Origin: Pedobacter aquae
GTDB lineage: Bacteria > Bacteroidota > Bacteroidia > Sphingobacteriales > Sphingobacteriaceae
Length of the DNA: 64,000 nt
Direction: 5' to 3'
Assembly (NCBI RefSeq): GCF_008195825.1
Contig: NZ_CP043329.1
Location: 62,001-126,000, forward strand
The first letter of the stretch is position 1. Every line of letters begins with the position of its first letter. Shown here one piece after another: positions 26,135 to 56,938 of the stretch. The position numbers were made by a program, and so were the translations under genes. The notes beneath the pieces are model-generated. The model was given only the letters and a program-made list of their open reading frames with translations. It did no database searches and was not told the origin of the DNA.

Positions 26135-27480
26135 ATAGCCCAAGGTTTAAACCTTGGGCTAAAAGATAAATCTTGCGCTCGTTTTAATCATAGCCCAAGG
26201 TTTAAACCTTGGGCTATAAGATAAATCTTGCGCTCGTTTGTAACGAGTGTTTAACATGGTCTAGCGATTCAATCGCTTTAAAGATATATGCACATCATAG
26301 CCCAAGGTTTAAACCTCGGGCTATAAGATAAATCTTGCGCTCGTTTGTAACGAGTGCTTAACATGGTTTAGCGATTCAATCGCGTTAAAGATATATGCAC
26401 ATCATAGCCCTAGGTTTAAACCTAGGGCTATAAGATAGAAAAGCTTTTGCGCTCGTTTGTAACGAGTGCTTAACATGGTTTAGCGATTCAATCGCGTTAA
26501 AGATATATGCACATCATAGCCCAAGGTTTAAACCTTGGGCTATAAGATAAATCTTGCGCTCGTTTGTAACGAGTGCTTAACATGGTTTAGCGATTCAATC
26601 GCGTTAAAGATATATGCACATCATAGCCCAAGGTTTAAACCTTGGGCTATAAGATAGAAAAGCTTTTGCGCTCGTTTGTAACGAGTGCTTAACATGGTTT
26701 AGCGATTCAATCGCGTTAAAGATATATGCACATCATAGCCCAAGGTTTAACCTTGGGCTATAAGATAAATCTTGCGCTCGTTTGTAACGAGTGCTTAACA
26801 TGGTTTAGCGATTCAATCGCGTTAAAGATATATGCACATCATAGCCCTAGGTTTAAACCTAGGGCTATAAGATAGAAAAGCTTTTGCGCTCGTTTGTAAC
26901 GAGTGCTTAACATGGTTTAGCGATTCAATCGCTTTAAAGATATGCACATCATAGCCCAAGGTTTAAACCTTGGGCTATAAGATAGAAAAGCTTTTGCGCT
27001 CGTTTGTAACGAGTGCTTAACATGGTTTAGCGATTCAATCGCGTTAAAGATATATGCACATCATAGCCCTAGGTTTAAACCTAGGGCTATAAGATAGAAA
27101 AGCTTTTGCGCTCGTTTGTAACGAGTGCTTAACATGGTTTAGCGATTCAATCGCGTTAAAGATATATGCACATCATAGCCCAAGGTTTAAACCTTGGGCT
27201 ATAAGATAAATCTTGCGCTCGTTTGTAACGAGTGCTTAACATGGTTTAGCGATTCAATCGCGTTAAAGATATATGCACATCATAGCCCTAGGTTTAAACC
27301 TAGGGCTATAAGATAGAAAAGCTTTTGCGCTCGTTTGTAACGAGTGCTTAACATGGTTTAGCGATTCAATCGCGTTAAAGATATATGCACATCATAGCCC
27401 TAGGTTTAACCTTGGGCTATAAGATAAATCTTGCGCTCGTTTGTAACGAGTGCTTAACATGGTCTAGCGATTCAATCGCT
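26135..27480. repeat. tandem array of 13 palindrome-bearing repeat units between aroA and aroC
   Basis: Each unit carries a 28-bp perfect palindrome whose left arm is ATAGCCCAAGGTTT or ATAGCCCTAGGTTT. Then come a short inverted repeat (AAGATAAATCTT or AAAAGCTTTT), the hairpin CTCGTTTGTAACGAG and the hairpin GCGATTCAATCGC, and a linker ending GATATATGCACATC. Palindromes begin at 26135, 26190, 26297, 26404, 26516, 26623, 26735, 26841, 26951, 27063, 27175, 27282 and 27394. After the first, which is 55 bases from its neighbour, the spacing is 106-112 bases, mostly 107 or 112. Copies 7 and 13 are one base shorter. Alternative arms change on both sides together, so base pairing is kept. It contains no gene. 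Confidence 0.93.
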
Positions 27481-27492
27481 TTAATTATATAA

Positions 27493-28752: not shown

Positions 28753-28908
28753 TCTAACCACCCAACAAACTAACCACCTAACAAACTAACCACCTAACAA
28801 ACTAACCACCCAACAAACTAACCACCTAACAAACTAACCACCTAACAAACTAACCACCTAACAAACTAACCACCCAACAAACTAACCCCCAACAAACTAA
28901 CCCCCCAC
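28753..28908. repeat. G-free tandem array (AACCACCT/AACAAACT type)
   Basis: About 150 bases of alternating AACCACCT and AACAAACT octamers (16-base period) with no G on the plus strand until its end. On the minus strand it reads GGTTAG and TTGTTAG repeatedly. Its right end contains the TAG stop (28897-28899) of the acetyltransferase gene. Confidence 0.85.
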
Positions 28909-30860: not shown

Positions 30861-32858
30861 TTAATGAGTGTTGATATAATGATACATCGTTTGATAATGA
30901 TGAAGGATATTCCCTTCTTCATAATCCTTTCTAATGGTGTTTTGTAAGCCATTAAAGGCTATGTCTCTATTTATGATAGCTTTATAAGCTTTTATTAAAC
31001 TCTCTTTTAAAGCCGGAGCTGTTCTTTTACAAACCCATCCTAAATCCTTCTCTTTTACATAATCACTCAAACCTACGTTTTCGGTAATAAGTACTGGAGT
31101 TCCGCTATACAAGCTTTCAATAACTACGTTAGCAAAATTCTCATCATAAGAAGGTAAAACAAATAAGTCATGTGCTGCCAATAAGTCAAACTTTTCATCC
31201 CCATAAACAGGGCCTAACCAATGAACACGCTTAGCAAAGCTCTTCTTCTTAATTCCATCTTCACTTATCACTTCATGCTGTTCTCCACCCAGCCTACCTT
31301 CTTCGGTATTCGGTCTTCTTTCCCAACTTTCCACTTCACGCACAACTTCCTGCCGCTCACCATCCAGTCTACGGTCTGCGGACTTCGGTCCTCGGTCCTC
31401 AGACTTAAACCTTTCAACATCACTTATCCCTTCTATCTGCTCTCCATCCAGTCTACGGTCTGCGGACTGCGGTCCTCGGTCTTCTTCCAACTTCAATCTT
31501 TCAACATCACTTATCCCTTCTATCTGCTCTCCATCCAGTCTACGGTCTGCGGACTTCGGTCCTCGGTCTTCTTCCAACTTCAATCTTTCAACATCACTTA
31601 TCACTTCCTGCTGCTCTCCATCCAGCCTACGGTCTGCGGACTTCGGTCCTCCGTCCTCAGACTTCAACCTTTCAACATATTCCATTTCACCATCTCCAAC
31701 AACACTCAATTCCCAAGGAAAATCTAACTCATTCAAAACTTCAAATAACAGCTCAAGCCCCTTTTTCTCTTCTATACGAGATAAAAAGATCAATTTTAAA
31801 GTACAATCTATTTTTTCTTTTTTGTTTAGCTTTTTCTCCCAAGGGAGCTTTACAAAGTTTGGGATATTAAAAATAGACTTTGGTTTTAGTAAAGCTTGCG
31901 TATCTCCAGCCTCCTTAGCGCTGGTTGTATGAAAATAACAGGCATTCAACAAATGTTTACCCAATAATTGATGAAATACCTTTTTTAATAAACTTTTATC
32001 TTTTTCAAAAGAGTATAAACTAAGGGTGCCTCTTGGGCTTAAAACTACCTTCACGCCTCTACATAAAGCAATTAAGCAAGCAGGCATGGTAACCAAATTC
32101 CACCAAGCATGAATATGTACCACATCAAACTGTTTTACAGTTTTCCATAAATGCCATAAAAGGGCAGGAGAGAAGTGACTATGATCTTTGGTTATGCGCT
32201 TAAAATAGCTTACCTCAACACCATCTACCATTTTAGTTTCCCCATTCTGGTAGGGCAGTTCCTCTTTCCCATTAGCCAAAGTCGTATAAACAGAAATTAT
32301 CATCTTGTCAGGCTGAGCGGAGTCGAAGCCCCCATTCCCTAACCCCGTTCTGCTATCCCCCTCCAGTCTTCCGTCCTCGGTCATCGGACTTCTAGTTGTC
32401 GGTTGCCAGTTGTCAGTTGCCAGTTCTGGGTTATGTGCCGTCAGGCTGTGGTCATCGGTCATCGGACTTCTACCATCTGTTTCCAGTTCGCTGTTCCCTG
32501 TTTCCAGTTTTGTATCTATTAGACTATTTCTCTGCGGTCTGCGGTCCTCGGTCATCGGACTTCTACCATCTGTTTCCAGTTCGCTGTTCCCTGTTTCCAG
32601 TTTTGTATCTATTAGACTATTTCTCTGCGGTCTGCGGTCCTCGGTCATCGGACTTCTACCATCTGTTTCCAGTTCGCTGTTTCCTGTTGCCAGTTCTGGG
32701 TTATGTGCCGCCAGGCTGCGGTCCTCGGTCACCGGACTCCCCAAACCTCGCCTTTCGCTTTCAGCTTGAATTTCCTCACATAACTTCGCCACAGACATCA
32801 CTGGCCCGCCGTAAACGTATGCTGGTTTATATGATGCTGTAATATGGAGGATTTTCAT
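30861..32858 (-). CDS. family 4 glycosyltransferase with two large in-frame repeat insertions
   Basis: The core is a GT-B enzyme like the XrtY-associated glycosyltransferases: MKILHITASYKPAYVYGGPV at the N-terminus, VVHIHAWWNLVTMP, KVVLSPRGTLSLYSF, LIFLSRIEEKKGLELL, and the nucleotide-sugar site FVLPSYDENFANVVIESL. It has 665 residues, but about 154 (residues 32-185) and 141 (about residues 396-536) are low-complexity, highly polar repeat sequence inserted in frame. Removing them leaves about 370 residues, the usual size. The first insertion falls after the N-terminal Rossmann helix, the second after WELSVVGDGEMEYVE, both at likely surface loops. Whether the protein still works is unknown. 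Its ATG overlaps the stop of the preceding fragment as ATGA. Confidence 0.85.
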   Translation of the reverse strand: MKILHITASYKPAYVYGGPVMSVAKLCEEIQAESERRGLGSPVTEDRSLAAHNPELATGNSELETDGRSPMTEDRRPQRNSLIDTKLETGNSELETDGRSPMTEDRRPQRNSLIDTKLETGNSELETDGRSPMTDDHSLTAHNPELATDNWQPTTRSPMTEDGRLEGDSRTGLGNGGFDSAQPDKMIISVYTTLANGKEELPYQNGETKMVDGVEVSYFKRITKDHSHFSPALLWHLWKTVKQFDVVHIHAWWNLVTMPACLIALCRGVKVVLSPRGTLSLYSFEKDKSLLKKVFHQLLGKHLLNACYFHTTSAKEAGDTQALLKPKSIFNIPNFVKLPWEKKLNKKEKIDCTLKLIFLSRIEEKKGLELLFEVLNELDFPWELSVVGDGEMEYVERLKSEDGGPKSADRRLDGEQQEVISDVERLKLEEDRGPKSADRRLDGEQIEGISDVERLKLEEDRGPQSADRRLDGEQIEGISDVERFKSEDRGPKSADRRLDGERQEVVREVESWERRPNTEEGRLGGEQHEVISEDGIKKKSFAKRVHWLGPVYGDEKFDLLAAHDLFVLPSYDENFANVVIESLYSGTPVLITENVGLSDYVKEKDLGWVCKRTAPALKESLIKAYKAIINRDIAFNGLQNTIRKDYEEGNILHHYQTMYHYINTH
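31250..31673. repeat. tandem repeat insertion 2 inside the glycosyltransferase gene (84-87 bp units)
   Basis: Four to five units of 28-29 codons; on the plus strand each contains CAGTCTACGGTCTGCGGAC and CTTCGGTCCTCGGTC. The translated unit is DVERLK-(S/L)E(E)D-RGPKSADRRLDGEQ-plus a variable end. Unit length stays a multiple of three. The CGGTCNN heptamer rhythm is the same as at 32304-32765 and 33179-33610. Confidence 0.9.
32304..32765. repeat. tandem repeat insertion 1 inside the glycosyltransferase gene (93-bp units)
   Basis: Exact 93-bp units (31 codons) containing CGGTCCTCGGTCATCGGACT, then CTGTTTCCAGTTCGCTGTTC, then CCAGTTTTGTATCTATTAGA. At both ends it changes to 7-base runs of the GTCAGTT/GCCAGTT kind. 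The promoter-distal edge (32306-32330) is a copy of the dispersed element GGCTTCGACTCCGCTCAGCC in reverse orientation, translated as GFDSAQPD. Confidence 0.9.
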
Positions 32859-33118
32859 GGTTCAGCAGATACTTGAAGATGAGCTATCAAATCATTAAAA
32901 TATGGTGTCGACCAAATATTTAAAACATTCGGATTAGAAATAAACCTCTTGATATCGGCCTTCACCCTTTCCATACTTACGATAGCTATCCTCTCTCTTA
33001 TTAAGCTAATAAATTCTTCTTTATTGATAGTCTTTTTATTCCAATCACCACTCATTATTGCTCTTTCTAAAAAGTGATTTAGATTTAAAACTACGCCTTT
33101 TTTTATATACCATTCCAT
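32855..33118 (-). pseudogene. C-terminal remnant of an AbiEii-like nucleotidyltransferase toxin (candidate)
   Basis: An 87-codon ORF; the frame is open back to 33172 without another ATG. The sequence, including LNHFLERAIMSGDWNKKTI, ERVKADIKRFI and IWSTPYFNDLIAHLQ, resembles the extreme C-terminus of AbiEii/AbiGii family nucleotidyltransferases, which are about three times longer. The nucleotidyltransferase domain with its GS-x-D-x-D motif is absent. It is bounded upstream by the repeat tract and overlaps the glycosyltransferase start by 4 bases. The family call is from memory of motifs and is tentative. Confidence 0.45.
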
Positions 33119-33178: not shown

Positions 33179-33610
33179 AGTTCTGGGTTATGAGTCGCCA
33201 GACTGCGGTTACTAGTTGTCGGTCGCCAGTTGTCAGTTGCCAGTTCATGGTTATCAGTCGCCAGACTGCGGTCCTCGATCATCAGACTTCTATCATCTGT
33301 TTTCAGTTCCCTGTTTCCAGTTTCCAGTTTTGTATCTATAAGACTATTCCTCTGCAGTCTTCGGTCATCGGACTTCTGTCATCTGTTTTCAGTTCCCTGT
33401 TTCCAGTTTTACATCTCTAGCACTAATAGGCTGCGGTCCACCGTACTCGGTCATCGGACTTCTACCATCTGTTTTCAGTTCCCTGTTCCCTGTTTCCAGT
33501 TTTACATCTATAGCACTAATAGACTGCGGTCCACCGTACTCGGTCCCCGGACTTCTAGTCATCAAAGTTACATCTATGAGACTATTCCCCCGCAGTCCAC
33601 CGTCCTCGGA
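33179..33610. repeat. intergenic copy of the glycosyltransferase-insertion repeat family
   Basis: Non-coding on both strands. It shows the same plus-strand phrases in the same orientation as the insertions at 31250-32765: CGGTCATCGGACTTCT, ATCTGTTTTCAGTTCCCTG, TTTCCAGTTTTACATCTAT and AGACTGCGGTCC, repeated about four times with variable spacing. 33200-33245 has 7-base GTCGGTC/GCCAGTT/GTCAGTT steps. Unlike the copies in the gene, the unit length is not fixed to a multiple of three. It fills most of the gap 33119-33676. Confidence 0.88.
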
Positions 33611-35113: not shown

Positions 35114-36076
35114 CTATTTTAAAATATGAAGAATGTTTTTATAGAACCACATATCCTTTTTTAGAGTTCTCAGAAAACGGATAAGCAACCAACGAAAAAA
35201 AAGAAGAAAAATATTTGAGTGATTTGCTAAAAGAAATAGACATTTTGTTGCTAGATTGATTTCTTTTTTAAAAACTAAAAATAGCATTTCATTAAAGTAA
35301 ATAACTTGTGTCTTCCATGTTAAACAAATTTGAACTTTTTTTCTATGTTCATCTGCAACCATTTCATTAATGTTCAATAATATAGGGATGTCTTCCTTCA
35401 TACTTAAATAGGTGCTTTTGTAACTTCTACTTAGTTGTCCTAAGTGTCTTCTTAAGAAGATAAGTGGCTGATTTAGAAAACCAATATCACCATTTTTAGA
35501 AAGCCTTGTCCACATTTCAAAATCACCACTTACTTCATAATTTTCATTAAAATTACCAGCCTTGGCTATACCCTTTTTGGTTAATGTTACATTTGCAATA
35601 TTACCAGCAATACAACCCCAATAAGCTGAAATATAAGCATATAATTCTGAGGAAATAACCTCTGGAGTTTCATCTTTTTGATAGAGTTCTATTAATTTTC
35701 CATTCTCATCTATATAGTCTCTACCAGAATAACTCATCAATAAGTCTGGGTGTTTTTCATGAAAAATTATACATTCTTGTAAACAATGTGGTTTCATTAC
35801 ATCGTCTTGCGACCATAAGTGAATTAGATCCGTTGATGTTTTGCTTAATAGGAAATTTAAAGTCTTAAATAGGCCTAAGTTTATTTTATTTTTAAAAATT
35901 TTAATATTGGGATGATTGGCGTATTTATTAATTAAATCCCAACTTTTGTCCGTAGAACAATCATCACAAATTAAAAAATCGAAATCAATTAAATTTTGTT
36001 TTAAAACAGATTCCATTGCATCTATTAAAAACTTTTCTCCATTATAAACTGGAAGAATCACACTGATTTTTTTCAT
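35114..36076 (-). CDS. family 2 glycosyltransferase
   Basis: It has 320 residues with a GT-A fold: ISVILPVYNGEKFLIDAMES, then LICDDCSTDKSWDLI and the metal-site LIHLWSQDDVMKPHC. The C-terminal part contains a hydrophobic segment (LFLLANHSNIFLLFFRWLLIRF) that may attach it to the membrane. It overlaps the preceding family 4 glycosyltransferase by 35 bases, which implies coupled translation. The sugar specificity cannot be read from the sequence. Confidence 0.92.
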   Translation of the reverse strand: MKKISVILPVYNGEKFLIDAMESVLKQNLIDFDFLICDDCSTDKSWDLINKYANHPNIKIFKNKINLGLFKTLNFLLSKTSTDLIHLWSQDDVMKPHCLQECIIFHEKHPDLLMSYSGRDYIDENGKLIELYQKDETPEVISSELYAYISAYWGCIAGNIANVTLTKKGIAKAGNFNENYEVSGDFEMWTRLSKNGDIGFLNQPLIFLRRHLGQLSRSYKSTYLSMKEDIPILLNINEMVADEHRKKVQICLTWKTQVIYFNEMLFLVFKKEINLATKCLFLLANHSNIFLLFFRWLLIRFLRTLKKDMWFYKNILHILK

Positions 36077-37250
36077 TTAATTGATTTATAAAAGCTTTCA
36101 ATTGGTTTGAAATACTCCATTCTTTAATTATATCCTGAGATTTATCTTTCATTTGATGGATAGATGGAGATAAAGTAATTTTAGATAGACAAACTTTTAG
36201 TCCCTCTAAATCACTGCTTTCAAATACATAACCATTTTCACCATTTTTAACCAAATCTATGGCACAACCTACTTTGTTGCTGGCAATAATTGCATTCCTA
36301 CTAATCATGGCTTCATTGATAGCCAACCCCCAAGTTTCACCTGGTCCTTGAGAAGGTAAACAAAAAATATCTGAAGCTTGATACACTACAGGCATTTGAC
36401 TTTGATTCTGAAAATTCATAAAATGTACCCGATTATCTTTGCGCTCCTCATTTTTAACTTTCAACTTTAAAGTTTCTACTCTCCATTTCAAACTCTCCTC
36501 CAAGACCCCATTCCCCACAAAAAGTAAATGTGCATTCGGTAAATTTAAAGCTATAAAAGCGTCTAATAGAAGTAGCGGATTTTTTTTAGGTTCAAACTTC
36601 CCCGCAAATAAAATAAGTATATCAAGCTTACTTAATCCAAGTCTAGCCCTTAAGGCTTTTGCTTCGTTTTTTCTAGGAACTAAAAAGCGTCCGCTGTCTA
36701 TGGCGTGTGGTGCGAATACCAACTGTCTTTCTTTTAAACCATATTTCTTAAAATAGGCTTTATTAGCTGTCCCAACATAAAAAGCCAAATCAACATGGCT
36801 ATAAACCCATTTCAGGTAAATACTTTTTATATACTTTTTCCAACCTGTATCTTTATCCAATAGGGTCGAATCTCCTCTAAACCATAGTGGTGTTTTTCCT
36901 TTAAAGTGTCTCAACACCTGTAAGTGGCTCTGGTAGGCATAACCAATTAGCATAATCGCGTCGGGATTAAATTCTTCAATATGCTCAATCAGATTAGGAT
37001 TTATAATTCCCTTAAAATGATGACTGCCAGGATACTTACTCTCATTTTTTAAAAACTGGTAAGGATAATCTTCTAACAATGGAATATCCCACTCAATCAC
37101 CTTACCAAACCCTGGATCAAACTTTTTTAAAGAACCCTCTCCCCAAGTATAAAATACCATTAGGTTAGTTTCTTTAGCTAATAGTTGAAATAGTGGAGCG
37201 TAATATTGAATAGGGTGTGTAGTAACAATTGCTAACTTTTTATCAATCAT
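36042..37250 (-). CDS. family 4 glycosyltransferase
   Basis: A GT-B enzyme of 402 residues: LAIVTTHPIQYYAPLFQLLA at the N-terminus, LILFAGKFEPKKNPLLLLDA at the domain boundary, and IFCLPSQGPGETWGLAINEA as the donor-binding E-x7-E region. It overlaps its neighbours on both sides (1 and 35 bases), so it is in the middle of the operon. Confidence 0.92.
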   Translation of the reverse strand: MIDKKLAIVTTHPIQYYAPLFQLLAKETNLMVFYTWGEGSLKKFDPGFGKVIEWDIPLLEDYPYQFLKNESKYPGSHHFKGIINPNLIEHIEEFNPDAIMLIGYAYQSHLQVLRHFKGKTPLWFRGDSTLLDKDTGWKKYIKSIYLKWVYSHVDLAFYVGTANKAYFKKYGLKERQLVFAPHAIDSGRFLVPRKNEAKALRARLGLSKLDILILFAGKFEPKKNPLLLLDAFIALNLPNAHLLFVGNGVLEESLKWRVETLKLKVKNEERKDNRVHFMNFQNQSQMPVVYQASDIFCLPSQGPGETWGLAINEAMISRNAIIASNKVGCAIDLVKNGENGYVFESSDLEGLKVCLSKITLSPSIHQMKDKSQDIIKEWSISNQLKAFINQLNEKNQCDSSSL

Positions 37251-54387: not shown

Positions 54388-54942
54388 TGTAGTTATAGCT
54401 ATAATTTGAGGTAAAAATACAGTAAGTTTTAGATATAACTAAAACTTTAATGTGTATTTTATAAGAACTTTCTCTTAAAATAAAAAATCAATCTTCAAAA
54501 ATATAATCACTCACTAATGAACTAGTGACTAATAAACTAATTACTAAATAAAAACTCACTCCATTAAAAATAACCATAGGGCTTCGACTCCCTGTCTGCC
54601 GAAGGCAGACGCTCAGCCTGACAATTCTTAATAATGACATCTTAGCACTCACTATCGACCATCAACCATTACCCACCGACCATTTTCTATCGACCATTTT
54701 CCATCAATCATTGCTCACCGACCATTGCCCATTGTCCATCAACCATTGCCCATTGACTCCCTACTCATGAACTAACCCCTAACCACCTAACAAACTAACC
54801 CCTAACCACCTAACAAACTAACCCCTAACCACCTAACAAACTAACCCCTAACCACCTAACAAACCAACCCCTAACCACCTAACAAACTAACCACCTAACA
54901 AACTAACCAACTAACAAACTAACCAACTAACAAACTAACCAC
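54388..54942. repeat. gene-free region filled with several repeat types
   Basis: It contains 7-base ACTAATA/ACTAATT steps (54521-54547), a dispersed GGCTTCGACTCC element (54579-54630), ACCATCGACC-type heptamers (54655-54770) and then the G-free octamer array (54771-54942). I see no coding potential. Confidence 0.8.
54579..54630. repeat. dispersed CTTCGACTCC-CTCAGCCTGAC element with inserted hairpin
   Basis: The element seen intact at 55901-55932 (GGCTTCGACTCCGCTCAGCC then TGACAATTCTTA) is here split by GTCTGCC-GAA-GGCAGAC, a perfect 7-bp hairpin with a 3-base loop. Confidence 0.8.
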
Positions 54943-54945
54943 CTA
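54771..54945. repeat. G-free tandem array ending in the permease stop codon
   Basis: Repeats of AACCCCT, AACCACCT, AACAAACT and AACCAACT without G on the plus strand. The final CTA (54943-54945) is the TAG stop codon of the Wzm-like permease on the minus strand. Confidence 0.85.
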
Positions 54946-56444: not shown

Positions 56445-56929
56445 ATGTCACAATTTTCTCTTACAAATTTACAGAAATATTTTTATTCACTATCGACCAT
56501 TAACTACCATACCAATCACTCCATCACAACTCACTCCATCAAAAATAATTGAAAGGCTTCGACTCCCACTTCGACTCCGCTCAGTGTGACAATTCTTACT
56601 CATAACTATTGACCATCGATCATTGACCATCAACCATAAACCAATCCCTAAATCAAAAATCACTCCATCAAAAATATCATCATCCACTAATGAACCAATG
56701 ACTCCCTACTAACCAACTAACCAACCAACAAACTAACCAACTAGACCCTAACCAACTAACCCCTAACAAACTAACCCACTAATCCCTAACCAACTAACCC
56801 TAACAAACTAACCAACTAGACCCTAACCAACCAACCAACTAGAACCTAACAAACTAACCCCTAACAAACTAACCAACTGGACCCTAACCAACCAACCAAC
56901 TAGAACCTAACAAACTAACCAACTAGTCC
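56445..56929. repeat. gene-free region with dispersed element and repeat arrays
   Basis: It contains a CTTCGACTCC element at 56554-56598 with a partial duplication (CTTCGACTCC appears twice), ACCATCGATC-type heptamers at 56600-56640, and from 56704 a 7-8-base periodic G-poor tract of AACTAAC, CAACCAA, CTAACCC and similar units. No coding potential is seen. Confidence 0.8.
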
Positions 56930-56938
56930 CTAACCAAC
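56704..56938. repeat. G-poor tandem array ending inside the glycosyltransferase gene
   Basis: Long run of AACCAACT, AACCCCT and AACAAACT units. It continues into the 3' end of the adjacent minus-strand gene, where CTA at 56930-56932 is that gene's TAG stop and the preceding codons give the final Val-Gly. Confidence 0.83.

Follow-up and report, generated by a model that had tools for sequence, protein, structure and literature searches.

Glycosyltransferase gene and its surroundings

The window, that is, the whole stretch of 64,000 nucleotides analysed here, lies within one 3.85-Mb contig of a 99.92% complete genome of Pedobacter sp., a soil bacterium that has Pedobacter puniceum and P. glucosidilyticus as its nearest named relatives. 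An intact ORF on the minus strand (30861-32858) encodes a protein of 665 aa with the N-terminus MKILHITASYKP, which was assigned through ORF, Pfam, structural and motif analyses to the GT4 glycosyltransferases of the GT-B fold, and 44% of which derives from two in-frame repeat inserts. Matches to Glycos_transf_1 (PF00534; 72 bits, cut-off 26.4) and Glyco_transf_4 (PF13439; 37 bits, cut-off 28.5) flank both insert stretches, and the inserts split the GT4 domains into pieces. The original prediction had placed these inserts at residues 32-185 and 396-536, and the flanking Pfam matches, Tandem Repeats Finder (TRF) and a 7-nt periodicity (z about 11) all confirm them.

Conserved sequence remains in two parts, as defined by orthologs, structure, Pfam and motif. 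The region between the inserts (31674-32303, minus strand) contains the remainder of the N-domain and the beginning of the C-domain, and the C-terminal catalytic core (30864-31250, minus strand) contains E573-x7-E581. These two glutamates, together with R361, K365 and K366, are residues of the GT4 catalytic-site type and are invariant in 70 orthologs; both the E-x7-E motif and the basic residues of the sugar-nucleotide site are thus retained. Judging from sequence and structural model, the ORF apparently encodes a working GT4 glycosyltransferase.

The surroundings of the gene are an exopolysaccharide locus with further glycosyltransferases, an exosortase-like protein and a hexapeptide transferase. 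An 87-aa ORF with no Pfam match (32855-33118, minus strand) overlaps the start codon of the glycosyltransferase gene (ATGA), and in L041, a locus from a metagenome-assembled genome, nothing matches about 220 bp of this region. The second GT4 of the window (36042-37250, minus strand) has a heptad-like helix (LEESLKWRVETLKLKV), and related glycosyltransferases in L098, L107 and L108 are expanded at the corresponding region. Other repeats are also present in the window. A tandem array of 12 copies with units of about 112/219 bp and a palindromic CCCAAGGTTTAAACCTTGGG core (26187-27491) sits between two shikimate-pathway-like genes, and short CTAACCA-type arrays with 14-23-nt periods (28754-28907, 54770-54945 and 56709-56938) lie between polysaccharide-locus genes.

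Heptanucleotide structure of the inserts

Insert 1 (32304-32765, minus strand; residues 32-185) occupies the α1-to-β2 connection of the N-terminal domain, and insert 2 (31251-31673, minus strand; residues 396-536) splits a C-domain helix before the strand 'VHWLG'. TRF, autocorrelation and ortholog comparison define both as heptanucleotide arrays that are organized further into 93-bp units in insert 1 and 84/87-bp units in insert 2. TRF detected a period of 93 at 32446-32695 and of 87 at 31355-31678, in agreement with the unit lengths of 93 and 84-87 bp first proposed; these units are, however, secondary to a basic period of 7 nt, not a multiple of three, which the original prediction had missed. 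Autocorrelation at lag 7 is 0.515 and 0.535 for the two inserts, compared with averages of 0.279 and 0.290 after shuffling (z = 11.5 and 11.2; none of 2000 shuffles reached these values); in the core, z is 1.8. Codon-preserving shuffles leave the z of the inserts at 10.8 and 12.1. Peaks at 7, 14 and 21 are found in both inserts and in the intergenic array at 33179-33610. Since a period of 7 nt is unobtainable from codon structure, this periodicity is a property of the DNA. An exact lag-93 run of 227 nt in the gene is, to judge from its sequence, a recent in-frame duplication, and the longer units thus seem fresh.

The intergenic array (33179-33610), identified by TRF, alignment and stop count, belongs to the same heptamer/93-bp family and has minus-strand stops in all three frames. 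The claim that the repeat family recurs outside the gene is borne out by an 82% DNA match to insert 1 through the shared 93-bp unit; its periods by TRF (33266-33563) are 86 and 93, and only the first of these fits the accompanying claim of intergenic unit lengths indivisible by three. Stops per forward frame number 0/11/13 and 0/11/18 in the inserts versus 12/10/10 in the intergenic array; because the alternative-frame stops of the inserts resemble those of normal coding DNA (35/39 in the core), only the contrast with the intergenic copy, 0 versus 10-12 per frame, is usable, and it supports the view that the frame has been kept.

The arrays are degenerate, the longest perfect heptamer run in the inserts being 2.3 units. 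Lacking perfect head-to-tail copies, they are better described as heptamer-derived arrays than as clean simple repeats. This bears on whether the gene is a phase-variable contingency locus, in which slippage by one heptamer (7 = 1 mod 3) would switch the enzyme between an active and an inactive state. Such switching is known from the tetranucleotide repeats of lipopolysaccharide genes, and a simulated change of one or two units, which are not multiples of three, leads to a stop within about 11 codons. Nevertheless, this explanation is very improbable and was rejected, as there is no long perfect tract able to slip out of frame; moreover, all ortholog inserts read are in frame, and the duplications seen, of 84, 87 and 93 bp, are all in frame as well.

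Three heptamers add up to 21 nt, the length of seven codons, and it follows arithmetically that a stop-free heptamer gives one and the same seven-residue repeat in every forward frame. The (DRGPKTG)n peptide in P. puniceum shows such a seven-residue repeat directly.

An arm of a dispersed palindromic element in insert 1

The downstream end of insert 1 consists of a different kind of repeat. A 25-bp stretch (32306-32330, minus strand), GGCTTCGACTCCGCTCAGCCTGACA, which encodes GFDSAQPDK, was recognized by a genome pattern search as one arm of a dispersed palindromic repeat. The genome contains 25 exact copies of this 25-mer and 41 with up to three mismatches, against 0 for a reversed-pattern control, and most copies form one arm of a palindromic element that starts with GTCACATTGAGCGGAGTCGAAAT. 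Among the 30 copies read, 29 are intergenic, and only that of insert 1 falls in an ORF. Of 18 genomes from the genus, 13 contain the 25-mer, and the peptide GFDSAQ also occurs in the inserts of P. glucosidilyticus and P. psychrophilus. Insert 1 thus combines intergenic repeats of two kinds, a heptamer array and a palindromic arm. The dispersed intergenic element GTCACATTGAGCGGAGTCGAAAT...GGCTTCGACTCCGCTCAGCCTGACA is found at G000:C1:117901 and about 40 other sites; a literature text search by its sequence found no published description, and the predicted RNA fold of the arm is not unusually stable (z 0.5).

Turnover of the inserts among orthologs

Ortholog comparison, which had been proposed as a check, covered 86 orthologs and revealed turnover of insert length at the same sites, in which loop 1 ranges from 0 to 151 aa and loop 2 from 0 to 134 aa. 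Loop 1 has 151 aa in the window protein, 112 in P. puniceum, 123 and 88 in two P. glucosidilyticus genomes and 29-52 in further Pedobacter and Pelobium, and is absent in Mucilaginibacter. Distant orthologs of this genus thus lack the inserts, and the outcome named as refuting the original prediction did not occur. Insert 2 (134, 106, 38 and 70 aa) is limited to the four closest genomes among the 86 orthologs. In a tree from the core only, these four genomes form one clade, and loop 1 is expanded throughout one Pedobacter/Pelobium clade with the exception of L101; at least four changes are required for the loop-1 expansion. Every ortholog insert read is in frame, and the sequence, composition and length of inserts differ even between close species. 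Polar inserts of 28-74 aa are also found at a third site in three other Pedobacter, being clearly heptameric in two. Two sets of inserts were set aside: those that P. fastidiosus and the P. borealis group have at core column 99, which are not heptameric, and the short loop-1 inserts of L014, L042 and L088, which have no clear lag-7 signal.

The idea that an intergenic repeat invaded the gene stands in part. Intergenic-type repeat DNA is indeed inside the gene, but its source in the adjoining array is not established, because P. puniceum and P. glucosidilyticus DSM 23534 carry both inserts and their glycosyltransferase gene adjoins another gene directly, with no array between. Among close relatives, the upstream array was seen only in the UBA7667 genome.

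A rival reading, somewhat less likely than not, is that insert 2, and perhaps the beginning of insert 1, was not copied in from intergenic repeats and instead grew in situ by slippage from native DNA encoding a heptad helix. In clade members without insert 2, its site is the most heptamer-like 63-nt window of the gene (rank 1/340, z 3.1), a preference not seen in Mucilaginibacter and other orthologs, although the test is post hoc and the windows overlap (roughly 16 are independent). Insert 1 of L041 starts as (AESERLK)n and continues helix α1. On the other hand, the 93-bp unit of insert 1 matches that of the intergenic array at about 82%, and slippage cannot create the palindromic arm that this insert also has, which makes copy-in of intergenic-type DNA likely there. 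The sequences make growth in place plausible for insert 2.

Predicted structure and selection

The AlphaFold model of the window protein has a GT-B core with pLDDT mostly above 90 and both inserts below 50, and the inserts are predicted to form disordered surface loops. Alignment with VIA-align gave Z 28 to HepE (4xso) and about 27 to BshA and PimA over about 340 residues; the three share the GT-B fold, but their solved chains have 360-400 residues and lack the 130-150-residue inserts of the Pedobacter enzyme. The model of an insert-free ortholog, L059 (pLDDT 90), served as a map for the insert sites. On this map, loop 1 joins helix 18-32 to strand 36-42 and the third site lies in the link from helix 163-172 to strand 177-180; insert 2 sits close to where helix 239-251 ends, ahead of strand 258-262. 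Rossmann-like domains build their catalytic cleft from strand-to-helix loops. All three heptamer sites are at helix-to-strand connections, of which there are 10 versus 11 in the opposite direction (p about 0.09, hand calculation); with three sites, a placement bias toward these connections is suggestive only.

Among the four close genomes, the core has a pairwise dN/dS of 0.08-0.15 and the inserts have one of 0.33-0.99; the insert values come from protein-guided alignment of repeats, in which the register is uncertain and the direction consistent. A protected reading frame combined with weakly constrained loop sequence favours tolerated passengers over a precise function. The suggestion that the enzyme tolerates very long disordered loops therefore agrees with the predicted disorder of the inserts, the confident core and its low dN/dS, while the alternative suggestion, length-variable control of polysaccharide synthesis, is conjectural; with dN/dS so relaxed in the inserts, a precise role that depends on their sequence is disfavoured.

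The same data bear on an assembly artefact or a decaying gene. Such repeats are difficult to assemble, and an artefact might be suspected for this reason, but the genome is a single contig and independent assemblies of relatives have related inserts, so that an artefact is unlikely; the intact catalytic residues and the dN/dS of the core speak against decay. Either explanation is hardly credible.

Heptamer arrays in other loci

Arrays of the own genome were surveyed in a systematic 400-kb sample together with targeted loci and searches. Heptamer arrays are dispersed, and in the sample and targeted loci all of those outside the glycosyltransferase gene are noncoding. In relatives, coding arrays were found in several other proteins. 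One is a second GT4 of 515 aa with an insert of about 130 aa; a further ORF of the same locus looks like a glycosyltransferase; and another GT4 family has an array in the corresponding C-domain region. A polysaccharide deacetylase (L179, 1069-1827) carries a heptad insert of about 70 aa after RPPYGR, and a similar insert is also present in a protein without obvious relation. In-frame fusion of intergenic-type repeats in relatives thus extends to several glycosyltransferases and a polysaccharide deacetylase. The exopolysaccharide locus of one relative (L183 and L184, G014 contig 47) has three genes with heptamer inserts, at least two of them for glycosyltransferases, and one of its inserts ends in GFDSSFDSAQ, a peptide resembling that of the palindromic arm.

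The two inserts of the window glycosyltransferase might have been recruited, as length-variable, acidic, disordered linkers that tune the enzyme, its association with membrane or partners, or polysaccharide output. Both inserts are strongly acidic (net charge, -14 and -15), they persist in four species, loop 1 is expanded through the Pedobacter/Pelobium clade except L101, and several exopolysaccharide glycosyltransferases are affected in one relative. However, recruitment is quite unlikely in view of the variation of insert sequence, composition and length between close species, the dN/dS of 0.33-0.99, the abundance of orthologs without inserts, and the similar inserts in the deacetylase and in the protein of no obvious relation. 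Function could still be the cause of the inserts being kept long across the four-species clade, and the acidic composition may leave room for a length- or charge-dependent role compatible with low sequence constraint.

Origin of the inserts

The best explanation, to which we assign a probability of roughly 0.7, is that intergenic-type repeat DNA, made of degenerate heptanucleotide arrays and, in insert 1, a palindromic arm, colonised surface connections of the GT4 enzyme and was tolerated there. Heptamer arrays would be unusually easy for a gene to carry, three units being equal to seven codons. Insert 1 would have entered as a copy of intergenic-type DNA, and insert 2 possibly by growth from a heptamer-like native helix. 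Once inside the gene, an array would lengthen and shorten through recombination between the secondary 84/87/93-bp units, and only in-frame products would survive, since the catalytic C-terminal domain is encoded downstream of the arrays. The loops themselves would be near-neutral passengers rather than functional parts. A broader scheme can be sketched more tentatively, and is somewhat doubtful: heptanucleotide repeats, commensurate with protein heptads of about two helical turns, might be a recurrent route of growth for enzyme loops and helices in Pedobacter and relatives, with nucleation at heptamer-like helix DNA or copy-in and later decay to disordered loops on the non-catalytic face.

Relation to known repeats and implications

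The closest parallel is offered by the Rickettsia palindromic elements (RPEs), repeats found between genes as well as within the reading frames of conserved enzymes, which tolerate them (Ogata et al., 2000; see the review PMC2229807). In one tested case, the RPE-bearing guanylate kinase, the enzyme is active with an altered substrate affinity (PMC2229807). RPEs are single palindromic elements of 105-146 bp (PMC2229807), whereas the bulk of the Pedobacter inserts consists of degenerate heptanucleotide tandem arrays of variable length, and the palindrome is merely a 25-bp arm at one end. Heptanucleotide arrays are known in cyanobacteria (STRR), Xanthomonas and some Bacteroidetes, where they are mainly intergenic; heptamers are reported as the most abundant class of long repeats in many genomes, and coding repeats have been reported mostly as multiples of three (PMC4679880 for TAACTGA; PMC4692102 for GGGAATC). 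The Pedobacter arrays resemble these in their 7-nt tandem units and in being dispersed and mainly intergenic elsewhere in the genome, but have different motifs, are highly degenerate and lie inside enzyme genes. Palindromic amphipathic coding repeats, PARCEL, likewise form tandem arrays of repeat-coding DNA in ORFs (PMC2996958); their fixed 25-residue motif, however, builds a repeat protein, and the Pedobacter inserts are disordered insertions in a known enzyme. A literature search of incomplete coverage found no description of heptanucleotide arrays that expand enzyme loops, and nothing that deals directly with such repeats in Pedobacter or in reading frames.

The finding suggests that conserved enzymes of free-living bacteria have repeatedly captured noncoding repeat DNA in frame, an idea that was established in obligate intracellular lineages. 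As a warning for annotation, a long polar heptad stretch in a Bacteroidota protein may stem from repeat DNA and need not be a functional domain. With loop lengths of 0-151 residues over many species, this family makes it possible to measure what such inserts cost or bring and how repeats find their way into a gene.
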